64,000 nt of DNA from Nitrospira sp. (GTDB lineage Bacteria > Nitrospirota > Nitrospiria > Nitrospirales > Nitrospiraceae): contig JAURZE010000022.1 of assembly GCA_030653545.1 (NCBI GenBank), positions 372,001 through 436,000 of the forward strand. Direction: 5' to 3'. The notes beneath the pieces were generated by a model. The model was given only the letters and a program-made list of their open reading frames with translations. It was not told the origin of the DNA and made no database searches. Positions 21,102 through 25,128 of this stretch are shown piece after piece. Within the stretch, counting starts at the first letter, position 1. Each line of letters opens with the position of its first letter. The position numbers were made by a program, and so were the translations under genes.

Positions 21102-22718
21102 CTACCCGCGTTCCTTCGTTTGAACATCCACATAGACGGGATTGGTCAACACCTCGCCGCTCCGACCCACCACTTCCAGACGGTAGTATGCCCCACCCGC
21201 TGATACCGCTTGTCCATCCGCCACTCGATACGCCACCGGGGTCTCGGCATTCGTCATATCGATCACTTCTCCCGAACGGATGAGACGGATCATGACCGGG
21301 TGAGGCTTGCCGTCGCGCGCTGAAAGCCGGACCGTCGCGACCGCATGCGAGCCGGACGGCAGAGCCAGATGCTCTCCGACGCTAACGGTTGGCTGATCGC
21401 AGTCACAACCAAGGCTGAATTCGTCCAATGTCAGCATCACCCGCTGATCTCCTTCGGCGGCCGCATAGGCATGGCCGGACCGGATCGCGGACAACAGGCC
21501 GGCAACCGACCGTTCCTTCGCAAAGACCGTCGTCACGACACGGTCGAGGTCCTTTCCTTTATCAGCCAACCCGTGAAAGGCAATCTCGCCGATCATCGTG
21601 GGCACGGCAGACTGTGCTCTTCCCCTGTGCGACTGAATCACCTGATCCCAGAGCCCGCCGGCAGCCGTCACGGTCCTCGTATCCTGATAGAGTCCGCCGA
21701 ATCCGGCATACCCGCTGGTCAACGCCAGCGCTTCAGGATGAGCATCGGTCCTCACCGTCACCGTCCCTAACGGACCAAAGGCATGCGTCTGTAGGTCGCG
21801 CGCCTCCGTCATCGACCAGAGCGCGACCGCGCCGCGTTGATTCGCGGCATCGAGCAAGGCTTGATAGGGTCGATACCCCAGCTGCGACTCGTAGGAGCTG
21901 AAGGGAGGCGTTCCGATCGGCCAGGCATTTACGAACGTGGCCACGGCCAACACAAGGCAGCAGGCGGCGCCCATTCGACGCGCCGCACTGACCGGCTCGC
22001 GCCAGCCATCCGCCAGGGGACGGCGAGGCGTCCATAAGAACAGCGCGGGAATGACCAAGAGCAGAGGCGCGGCATTCGCGAGGCTGGCCGCCTCGACCGT
22101 CAAGGACGCCGGATTGCCACGTGCCGGGAGCGCCCGATAGTCCTCCGCCCTCGTCAGCCCCAACACCAGGAGATTGCGCTGCGCGTCGTGCATCGTCAGA
22201 TCCCCACGCCAGAGGGAGCCGGTCCAATAGTAGTAGGGAGCGACCTCGACTCCCGGCACAATCACTAGCTGCGGGTGGCGCGCTTGCACCGATTGGATTT
22301 CTTCGAGATAGCGCTCGACACCATAAGAGAGAACCGAGGGATACCTGACCGTCTTTTTCAGCAGTCCCGGAAGTGGCTGGAGGCCATACTCGTACTCCAG
22401 AGAGAAATTGTCGGAGAGTACGATCCCATCTAGGCCCTGTTGCTCAGCCCGGGCCGCCAACGCCTCCAGGCTCAAGGTCCCGGTACTGGCCGTGCTATGG
22501 ACATGGATGGCGACACGAAGGGGCACCCGCTGCTCCGCGGCCGACACAATCGGCAACCAGACCAGCCCCGACAGCGTGAGACCAATCCAGGCAGCACCCA
22601 CAGGATGCTCAAAAAGACCGCCCAGCAAGGCCGCAGCAAGCGAAGAGGCGAGGCGTACGCAGCAGTACGTTGAGCCTCTGAGTGAAGCGAGAACGCCGCT
22701 GGCGGACTTTTTCAGCAT
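21102..22718 (-). CDS. PHP-domain hydrolase with internal membrane helices
   Basis: A metal-dependent PHP-superfamily protein: the first metal motif HVHST is at residues 72-76 (H72 and H74), then the DGIVLSDNFSLEYEYG stretch and GVEVAPYYYW. A region of two hydrophobic helices (about 218-235 and 245-265) then interrupts the fold before the second half (ALWSMTEARD, GEIAFHGLAD), so the enzyme seems membrane-held with its catalytic face outside, given the preceding hydrophobic N-terminus. Codons 1-39 are encoded by the 122-bp repeat at 22601-22722. The original start may be the GTG at 22601, which would leave a normal signal peptide ending at VSAA. Substrate unknown; WbqC-like, PIG-L and DegT follow. 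Confidence 0.75.
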   Translation of the reverse strand: MLKKSASGVLASLRGSTYCCVRLASSLAAALLGGLFEHPVGAAWIGLTLSGLVWLPIVSAAEQRVPLRVAIHVHSTASTGTLSLEALAARAEQQGLDGIVLSDNFSLEYEYGLQPLPGLLKKTVRYPSVLSYGVERYLEEIQSVQARHPQLVIVPGVEVAPYYYWTGSLWRGDLTMHDAQRNLLVLGLTRAEDYRALPARGNPASLTVEAASLANAAPLLLVIPALFLWTPRRPLADGWREPVSAARRMGAACCLVLAVATFVNAWPIGTPPFSSYESQLGYRPYQALLDAANQRGAVALWSMTEARDLQTHAFGPLGTVTVRTDAHPEALALTSGYAGFGGLYQDTRTVTAAGGLWDQVIQSHRGRAQSAVPTMIGEIAFHGLADKGKDLDRVVTTVFAKERSVAGLLSAIRSGHAYAAAEGDQRVMLTLDEFSLGCDCDQPTVSVGEHLALPSGSHAVATVRLSARDGKPHPVMIRLIRSGEVIDMTNAETPVAYRVADGQAVSAGGAYYRLEVVGRSGEVLTNPVYVDVQTKERG

Positions 22719-22722
22719 CCTG
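22601..22722. repeat. 122-bp palindromic element with terminal inverted repeats
   Basis: The ends are imperfect inverted repeats of about 26 bp: the left end reads CAGGATGCTCAAAAAGACCG, the right end (reverse complement) CAGGATGCTGAAAAAGTCCG, and both continue with CC(C)AGC. The middle contains GTAC-GCAGCA-GTAC at the apex, so either strand can fold into one long imperfect hairpin. It sits between a GT4 gene and the PHP gene. It supplies the last codons and stop of the first and, in frame, the first 39 codons of the second. No transposase and no clear target duplication are seen. It looks like a MITE- or REP-type non-autonomous repeat; no second copy lies in this window. Confidence 0.75.
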
Positions 22723-23896
22723 CTAACGCTTCCTGGTAGACCGACTCCACAGCATCCACCATGGCCTTCACTCCAAATTCCTGTCCAATCGTGCGCGACG
22801 CGTTCCGACCGAGCCTCTCGGCCAACTGAGGGTCAGCCAGAATGCGGCGCAACGCCTCGCTCAGCCCCCGTCCATCCCCCGCCTCAACCAGCAATCCGTT
22901 CTCTTCGTGGCGTACAATCGCAGGAATCCCGCCCACTCGACTGGCGACAACCGGCAGGCCCGCCGCCATGGCTTCAATCAACGCGCGCCCCATGCCCTCG
23001 TTCAATGAGGGAAATACAAAGCAGTCCATCCCGGCCAGGCACTGCTCGATATCGTCTCGATGCCCGACTAAATGAATACGATCACGGAGGCCCAACGAAT
23101 CCGCTTGAGCGAGCAAGGCGTCATGCTGCCCGCCACTACCCACGATCACCATCTGGAGCTTCGGAAACTCGTCCTTGAGGTAGCCCACGGCTTCGACCAG
23201 GACCCGGTGGCCCTTAATATCCGTTAACCAGCCGATCGATCCGACGATCGTCGCATCAGTGGAACAGTTGAAATCCTGGGGAATCCGCCGGCCTTCAACT
23301 CGCGCGCGGCGAAACCGCTCGACATCGATGCCGCTGGGAATTACGGCAAACCGATCGGCATGGCCGACCGCTCTCGCAAGATGGTCGTCCCGCTCTGCGC
23401 TCGTCAACGCCACCAGCCTGCTCGTCACGCGACACAGAATGCGCTCGACCTGCAAGAAGATCCGGGATTTCCAGGCGCCGAAGTGTCCGTAAAACACATG
23501 TCCGTGCGGCGTATGCACGACCACCGGAACCCGCGCAAACCAGGCGGCCACTCGACCGACGACACCGGCTTTCGACGTGTGGGTATGGACAATCGCCGGA
23601 CGTTTCGCCCGCAGGATACCGACCACTGTCCATAACGCACAGAGATCCATCCAGGGGCTGATCTGGCGAACGAGCGACGGCACGATGACGCAGGAGATTC
23701 CCTCCTTCTCCAGGCGACGACACAGTTCCTCTGTCGCCGCCATGCCGCCCTGCGCATCCCACGATCCGGGATGACCGGCGATCACCACCGGCTCATACTG
23801 CGTCCGGTCATGCCCTAACACAGTCAACATGGTGTTTTGCGCCGAGCCTCCCCGATCGAGCCTGGTAATAATGTGAATGACCGTGCGCGCTTCCAT
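22712..23896 (-). CDS. Glycosyltransferase family 4
   Basis: A retaining GT-B glycosyltransferase of about 394 residues. The N-terminal domain has HIITRLDRGGSAQNT (a GT4 acceptor-side motif) and VHTPHGHVFYG; the C-terminal donor domain has GSIGWLTDIKGH, then SLNEGMGRALIEAMAAGLPV with the EX7E-type glutamate pair. The preferred ATG is at 23896, just after the upstream GT4 stop (23905); the frame is open to 23962. The last codons and the TGA stop lie inside the palindromic repeat. Donor and acceptor sugars are unknown; it belongs to the exopolysaccharide set. Confidence 0.87.
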   Translation of the reverse strand: MEARTVIHIITRLDRGGSAQNTMLTVLGHDRTQYEPVVIAGHPGSWDAQGGMAATEELCRRLEKEGISCVIVPSLVRQISPWMDLCALWTVVGILRAKRPAIVHTHTSKAGVVGRVAAWFARVPVVVHTPHGHVFYGHFGAWKSRIFLQVERILCRVTSRLVALTSAERDDHLARAVGHADRFAVIPSGIDVERFRRARVEGRRIPQDFNCSTDATIVGSIGWLTDIKGHRVLVEAVGYLKDEFPKLQMVIVGSGGQHDALLAQADSLGLRDRIHLVGHRDDIEQCLAGMDCFVFPSLNEGMGRALIEAMAAGLPVVASRVGGIPAIVRHEENGLLVEAGDGRGLSEALRRILADPQLAERLGRNASRTIGQEFGVKAMVDAVESVYQEALAGC

Positions 23897-23904
23897 AGAG
23901 GTCT

Positions 23905-25128
23905 TTAGGCCGCCTTTCGTTCCGACGCCGGTTGTGCTGAAAGCCGGATCAGATCCGCACAATGCTGCACCCAGTTGTACCGGGACTCCACCAGACTGCG
24001 CCCTTTCCTCGACAACCGCTCCCGCTCTACTGGCTCCTCAATACGGCTGAGGACTCGCCCCAGCGCGTCGGCATAGGAACGACTATCCGTCCCGTTTGAA
24101 ATCAAAATGGGGTCGATCTGCCGCAACACTTCGGGAATCGCGCCGACCGGCGTGCCCACGACCGGCGTGCCACAGGCCAGCGCTTCCACCGTCACCAGCC
24201 CGAACCCTTCGAGTTGAGCGGTCGGCATCAAAACCAGATCGGCGGCCTGGTAATACGACACTAACTGCTCCTCCGGAATAAACCCGACCAGCCGAACGAT
24301 CTGCTCCAATCGTCGCTCCCTGATACCGGCCTCCAAACGGGCCCTGAGCGGTCCTTCGCCTCCGATCACCAACAGACAGCGCTGACCGGCGTGCTCCAGG
24401 GAAGCGACGGCTTCCAGCAGCATCTCCAACCCCATCCGCGGAACCAGATTGCGGACAGTGAAGAGAATCGTCCGATCCTCCGGCAACCCCAACGTTCGGC
24501 GCAGCTCTCGTCGAGTGCCAACCGGACGAAAGACGGCAGGATCCGCCGCTCCCGGCACCAGGACTATCCGCTCGGGCGCGATCCCATGCGTCGCCATCAC
24601 CCGCTGCCGCATGAACTCACTCAGGACGACAATCCGATGACACCGCCACATCACCAACCACTCGATACCTCGGCGCGCCAGGACATTCACATGGCGACGC
24701 AGTTTCGACCACGGCGAGGTGGCTGCCACGGCGCGCGTGAGATACTCCTCGTGTGCCAGAGAATGGCAGACATAGAGCCACTCGGCCGCCGCACTCCGCC
24801 TGAGATAGAGAGGACCAAGCCCCGAGAGGGCTTGATGGATAATCGCCAGGTCATAGGGAACTTTCCGGGTCAGACGATCGAACAACTGCATCGCCCCCTG
24901 TACAGTCGATCGCACAAAGCTCCACTCATTCTTCCTCGATACAGGAAACCGCCACTCCTTCGCGCCGCCGATCGCGACCTCCATCGACACAGCCTCATCC
25001 GCGGCCCGCGTAAGGAGATCCACCTGATGCCCCGCTGCGACAAGACCGACAGCCTGCTGCCGCAAAACCCGCTCCGCTCCGCCGATGACCCGTTCGGCCG
25101 AGACTTCCGCTAAAAGCACAACCTTCAC
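23905..25128 (-). CDS. Glycosyltransferase family 4
   Basis: A 407-residue GT-B enzyme with the N-terminal glycine-rich loop IGGAERVLRQQAVGL, VCHSLAHEEY, and the donor domain motif TAQLEGFGLVTVEALACGTPV. The start is GTG at 25128, which overlaps the asnB stop as GTGA, so it is translationally coupled to asnB. It probably adds a sugar to the lipid-linked repeat unit on the cytoplasmic face. Substrates cannot be predicted from sequence. Confidence 0.88.
   Translation of the reverse strand: MKVVLLAEVSAERVIGGAERVLRQQAVGLVAAGHQVDLLTRAADEAVSMEVAIGGAKEWRFPVSRKNEWSFVRSTVQGAMQLFDRLTRKVPYDLAIIHQALSGLGPLYLRRSAAAEWLYVCHSLAHEEYLTRAVAATSPWSKLRRHVNVLARRGIEWLVMWRCHRIVVLSEFMRQRVMATHGIAPERIVLVPGAADPAVFRPVGTRRELRRTLGLPEDRTILFTVRNLVPRMGLEMLLEAVASLEHAGQRCLLVIGGEGPLRARLEAGIRERRLEQIVRLVGFIPEEQLVSYYQAADLVLMPTAQLEGFGLVTVEALACGTPVVGTPVGAIPEVLRQIDPILISNGTDSRSYADALGRVLSRIEEPVERERLSRKGRSLVESRYNWVQHCADLIRLSAQPASERKAA

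Follow-up and report, generated by a model that had tools for sequence, protein, structure and literature searches.

A MITE hairpin in place of the native stop and start signals at a coupled glycosyltransferase–PHP gene junction in Nitrospira

Remodelling of genes by MITEs and similar mobile repeats is already known. In enterobacteria, the mobile repeats RU-1 and RU-2 replace stop codons or form part of N-terminal signal peptides (PMC2759123), and in Coxiella the elements QMITE1 and QMITE2, which are found at gene 3' ends, confer stops or C-terminal residues (PMC5896051). YTAR is the reported duplication motif of IS5 elements (PMC10359306). The hairpin described here is located between a glycosyltransferase gene and the gene of a PHP-domain protein in Nitrospira, and both the present stop and the only good start of the junction come from it. 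It resembles IS5-family MITEs in being short and non-autonomous, in sharing a terminal repeat with IS5-family elements of relatives and in the YTAR on both sides of full-length copies; it differs from them in its left end, a long branched hairpin with a phylum-wide core, and the copy studied here lacks the right end. Like RU-1 and RU-2, it is a mobile repeat supplying stops or N-terminal parts, but its sequence is unrelated, one copy does both at a single junction, and relatives reveal the native start that was displaced. QMITE1 and QMITE2 are also MITEs at gene 3' ends which give stops; however, their sequence is different, their direct repeats are 2-3 or 7-11 nt long, and QMITE2 carries a GTAG REP. 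The hairpin family itself appears to be undescribed, as no description of it was found in the literature searched, the coverage of which was incomplete.

The stretch of DNA analysed (64,000 nt, hereafter the window) contains one copy of the element, 122 bp long. A simple gene caller places 56 of the 57 genes of the window (1-64000) on the minus strand, and the plus-strand GC skew is -0.12. The features of the locus are presented in Table 1. From 22726 downwards the minus strand reads TTAG/CAGGATGCTGAAAAAGTCCGCCAGC...GTAC TGCTGC GTAC...GGTCTTTTTGAGCATCCTG/TGGG, with slashes at the borders of the element. The ends, CAGGATGCT-G-AAAAAG...CTTTTT-G-AGCATCCTG on the minus strand, are complementary over ~26 bp with few mismatches. 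These inverted repeats and the apex had been described from the sequence alone and are indeed present; the fold is far better than that of dinucleotide shuffles (z -5.7 for the minus strand and -7.8 for the plus strand), and the copy scores 138 bits with the covariance model R1. No canonical intrinsic terminator (a short GC stem with an unpaired T run directly behind it) was found; the T run of the element pairs with an A run within the stem.

Table 1. Features of the glycosyltransferase–PHP junction (positions in the window)
Feature	Position	Strand	Basis
Glycosyltransferase group 1 gene, last codons and stop inside the element	22712..23962	-	Pfam PF00534
PHP-domain protein gene, present frame from the element ATG	21102..22718	-	Pfam PF02811 (weak, below cut-off); syntenic orthologues
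MITE hairpin (left terminal repeat, branched core, internal inverted repeat)	22601..22722	-	Covariance model R1, family alignment
TTAG, YTAR target-site half at the left end	22723..22726	-	YTAR left of 105/169 copies
Left-repeat ATG that overlaps the TGA in ATGCTGA; most likely PHP start at present	22716..22718	-	Native ATG absent in comparison with relatives
TGA in the left terminal repeat, present glycosyltransferase stop	22712..22714	-	Several other copies end a gene likewise
39 codons supplied by the element (MLKKSASGVLASLRGSTYCCVRLASSLAAALLGGLFEHP), in the PHP frame	22602..22718	-	Translation
Apex GTAC-GCAGCA-GTAC	22655..22668	not assigned	Stem kept phylum-wide, loop varies
GTG, candidate natural PHP start of the sequence-only reading	22599..22601	-	Homologous to an internal codon of relatives

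Both coding contributions of the element which the sequence-only reading had proposed are confirmed. The glycosyltransferase frame ends ...GCG TTA GCA GGA TGC TGA within the element, and the PHP frame is open from the ATG at 22718 through the whole hairpin, a run of 39 codons before the GTG at 22601. That reading also took the element to lengthen the PHP protein; comparison with relatives demonstrates that an intact gene was not lengthened and that its start was replaced. Glycosyltransferase and PHP genes are neighbours in many relatives, and the element is found at the junction in none of those examined, close or distant. In eight close relatives (80-93% identical over the 691-nt PHP 5' region) both genes are adjacent and the element is absent; the relatives compared at the locus reach at most 93% identity, with no strain above 95%. 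The closest is G085 (93% nucleotide identity over 691 bp; junction sequence GCCTTGCAGGCCCATGCATAATTTCGTATGGCAAACCGGGGTAGGTGTCGCATCCTGGATTGGTCTC), in which the glycosyltransferase ends in ...ALQAHA, with its stop TAA enclosed by the PHP start ATGCATAA, and the PHP protein begins with MHNFVWQTGVGVASWIGL. In all eight relatives the PHP ATG overlaps the glycosyltransferase stop and is followed by a short signal-peptide n-region. In farther relatives the overlap is kept, and the n-region is often arginine-rich (MRRAGRR). PHP homologues without the element do not have the 39-residue N-terminus.

A stretch of 38 nt of G085, GCAGGCCCATGCATAATTTCGTATGGCAAACCGGGGTA (GCAGGCCC to GGGGTA), is missing in the window. 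In its place AG and the hairpin are found between GCGTT and the PHP sequence, which resumes with GTG GGT GCT GCC TGG ATT GGT; the native PHP start of relatives lies upstream of the point where the homology resumes. The native glycosyltransferase stop, PHP start and n-region were therefore lost together, with ~38 nt replaced by the hairpin. The PHP reading frame is intact and constrained (dN/dS 0.186 against G085, a pairwise value in which constraint before and after the insertion is pooled).

Concerning the rest of the genome, 88 matches were obtained with a covariance model based on 39 diverse copies; nearly all are full length, and two are second-strand duplicates, leaving ~86 copies. BLAST of the assembly finds ~40. 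The expectation of further copies elsewhere in the genome, with no other in the window, is thus borne out. In a sample of the phylum, 84 of 245 genomes have a match, including 61 of the 62 in the same family; matches in other orders and classes of the phylum are weaker. The view of a non-autonomous mobile repeat in many copies is supported. Among the matches listed by an exact-pattern scan of named genomes, every record is labelled Nitrospira, Nitrospiraceae, Nitrospirales or Nitrospirae/Nitrospirota. Searches of plasmids, phages and viral contigs for the hairpin gave no match, and neither did an Rfam search of seven loci (up to E 0.1). Genomes of the genus g12 (G164, G278 and others) show on a first look ~200+ hairpin candidates each, far above the number in the present genome.

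Many copies run ~80 nt past the hairpin to a right terminal repeat: after the hairpin come ~65 nt, then GTTTTTCCGCAGCCTG, which is the inverse of the left end, and then YTAR, so that the length of the element varies from 122 to ~206 bp. The palindrome is therefore the left hairpin of a longer element, and 22601 is the end of the hairpin, not the right end of an original full-length MITE. The extent given by the sequence-only reading (22601-22722) is correct for the palindrome but not for the whole element. Terminal inverted repeats (CAGGATGCTGAAAAA left and TTTTTCCGCAGCCTG right) are present in 78 of 169 non-redundant copies. Among these 78 full-length copies, YTAR is found on the left in 59 and on the right in 56, and an exact 4-bp YTAR duplication in 28 (2000 shuffles: mean 15.6, at most 27). 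For a putative short form, mobile as the hairpin alone, the count is not above chance: YTAR directly follows the hairpin in 4 of 90 hairpin-only copies, with 2 exact duplications. The window copy has only the left terminal repeat, and its right flank, TGGG, does not contain a YTAR half matching the left TTAG; the mechanism of its insertion is consequently read from the family.

IS5-family elements of ~1.3 kb in relatives carry matching terminal repeats and YTAR. The ends of one of these (L257) are CTAGCAGGCTGCGGAAAAA (left) and TTAGCAGGCTGCGGAAAAA (right), and a second (L235) has CTAGCAGTCTGCTGAAAAA at both ends. The transposase of L235 matches NF033581 (NCBIfam IS5) with 251 bits against a cut-off of 140; that of L257 has an interrupted frame, the first half of which is just under the cut-off. 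A transposase with matching ends was not found in the present draft genome, which contains one DUF772/DDE_Tnp_1 gene with no matching repeat within ~1.5 kb. The element, too short for a transposase and present in ~86 copies, qualifies as a MITE, and the family is classified as IS5-type MITEs because of its terminal repeats, the YTAR duplication and the IS5-family partners in relatives.

The hairpin is usually located flush behind gene stops across the family. YTAR contains TAR, so that a copy inserted at a stop codon can preserve it, which is why copies bordering or providing a gene stop are common. In 66 of 160 copies the left-end TAR terminates, in frame, an open frame of at least 120 codons; the other two frames give 9 and 18, and at random YTAR sites each of the three frames has a rate of 9-13%. 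For genes running toward the left end, the median distance between stop and element is 0. About nine copies, including the window copy, end a long frame with the TGA of the left repeat. In the window, 12 of the 48 YTAR sites outside gene interiors fall at stops, so purifying selection accounts for a part of this location and probably not for the whole. Flush positions at a stop are more frequent in copies without the right end (55/82) than in the others (26/67, p 0.0009); in the former, the bias of left over right flush positions follows in part from the missing end itself, and among full-length copies this bias is not significant (21 vs 13). The sequence-only reading regarded the donation of both a stop and an N-terminus as unusual. 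The precedents (PMC2759123, PMC5896051) and the common stop-bordering copies qualify this; loss of the native start is seen only in the window copy among those of the family. Also, in two regions (L369 2913-11239, that is C22:450913-459239 of the same contig as the window, and L370 2746-13230) each of several consecutive genes is followed by a separate hairpin copy that abuts the stop or nearly so; all copies have one orientation, and a second species shows the run in synteny.

The hairpin structure is conserved in the copies. Among 40 copies of this genome, both sides have changed in 24 of 40 pairs (86 cells against 22.5 shuffled), and in the model alignment in 28 of 44 pairs; a G-G mismatch at column 10/122 is retained in most copies. 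In four orthologous element pairs between this genome and G022, 17 base pairs stayed Watson-Crick after changes on both sides, and 7 broke; for one of the four element pairs, with an identity of only 69%, strict orthology is uncertain. In distant relatives the core (CGTTCTCG, ACGTAC...GTACGC, CTGCGGCCTTGC) is kept, and the arms are rewritten yet complementary. These paired changes point to selection on the hairpin structure.

A tentative but serious alternative for the family as a whole is accordingly a structured nucleic acid kept behind stops for a function, with candidate roles in 3' end formation, RNA stability or as single-stranded DNA; the window copy would be a displaced member, which is compatible with the MITE reading of the window. 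The strong covariation, also between orthologous loci of two species, is in line with this, as are the core conserved across the phylum with rewritten arms, the consecutive genes with flush copies in conserved synteny, and the more frequent flush position of copies without the right end. However, template switching can homogenise palindromes and give paired changes without selection, Rfam contains no match, and the pairing is better on the strand opposite the adjacent mRNA. In 149 of 162 copies this opposite strand gives the more stable fold, with a mean difference of ~7 kcal/mol, and in the family alignment of these 162 copies both wobble pairs and folding energy favour it. The bias stays when the G-U vs A-C counts are restricted to pairs shared by both strand folds, without a pair that is mostly C-A; in a thinned set of 16 copies the counts are 14 vs 24 (p 0.14, not significant), while folding energy significantly favours the opposite strand in 14 of 16. 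The better pairing of the opposite strand argues against a simple mRNA terminator. A wider proposal, which we consider rather unlikely, is that the core is a phylum-wide structured element of Nitrospirota (ssDNA or RNA) with various arms, selected behind stops, for which the IS5-type MITE would be one vehicle; the window would then show this core taking over a gene junction. A locus in another family of the class (L282, G197) has the same core with unrelated, fully complementary arms (GAGCCTGCCGGGAATG...CATTCCTGGCAGGCTC). The family is of wider interest as a large group of hairpins in nitrite-oxidising bacteria and their relatives, with a target containing stop codons and a structure conserved at orthologous sites.

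Returning to the window, the reading we consider likely is that a copy of an IS5-type MITE replaced the junction, the glycosyltransferase now ending at the element TGA and the PHP protein most likely beginning at the element ATG. From the family and from the empty sites in relatives, we infer the course of events, including their order, the action of a transposase in trans and the actual start codon. An IS5-family transposase using YTAR targets probably moved the element in trans, and insertion would have occurred at TTAG near the glycosyltransferase 3' end in this lineage. Loss of ~38 nt of the junction, together with any right part of the element, would have removed the native glycosyltransferase stop, the native PHP start and the signal-peptide n-region; insertion may have preceded the deletion, or both may be a single event. 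The terminal repeat CAGGATGCTGA holds by chance an overlapping ATG and TGA, re-creating a coupled stop-start in a similar arrangement and a different relative frame. The 39 element codons, with KK near the start, would now stand ahead of the surviving hydrophobic stretch. A conserved coding frame in the element is ruled out by its mixed exit phases and variable loop length: the frame is open in 91 of the 129 family copies having the ATG, with exits in phases 0, 1 and 2. As the frame is not conserved among copies, the PHP N-terminus represents an accidental coding use. At this locus the states before and after a mobile element replaced stop and start of a coupled junction can be compared clearly, with the native sequence visible in relatives.

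The sequence-only reading had suggested that PHP naturally starts at the GTG 22601 at the edge of the element, in which case the 39 codons would be an untranslated leader. This is unlikely. The hydrophobic stretch does come after this GTG, and the ribosome-binding sequence near the ATG 22718 is poor; the hairpin at this ATG could also hinder initiation. The codon is internal in relatives, however, with the native start at the upstream ATG overlapping the glycosyltransferase stop in all eight, and the n-region is deleted here, so that a signal peptide beginning at the GTG would have no basic residue. Since a start at the GTG would leave no n-region, the 39-codon extension is the reading needing least: the ATG 22718 is the most likely PHP start, and the 39 element codons are predicted to be translated.

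REP/BIME elements with RAYT are likewise abundant palindromes behind genes, but their tag, transposase and target do not fit here. A REP/BIME-type element moved by a Y1 (RAYT) transposase is very improbable and mostly refuted: the hairpin is a palindrome in many copies, mostly outside genes, with a conserved tetranucleotide on one side, but the tag is YTAR, neither GTAG nor CGTC, the single Y1 transposase gene of the genome has no hairpin copy within 1.5 kb, and full-length copies have YTAR on both sides and IS5-family partners. Equally improbable is an attC-like recombination site of a cassette array, to which the flush position behind stops, the same orientation in gene runs and the better fold of the opposite strand would correspond, but most copies lack the RYYYAAC/GTTRRRY core pair, CTAG flanks dominate, and the array examined consists of ordinary metabolic genes, in synteny between species.

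Next to hairpin copies, the gene starts or ends assigned by automatic gene finders may be wrong. In two copies of the same genome (L004, L028) the element extends the downstream frame mechanically, with a plausible start located past the element in both. Several hairpin copies carry an insertion of a second small GC-rich repeat (containing GGGYGGGYGAGAA), in the right arm or at the apex (L029, L046, L122, L124, L145, L142, L369:9386-9553, L121 and L112).
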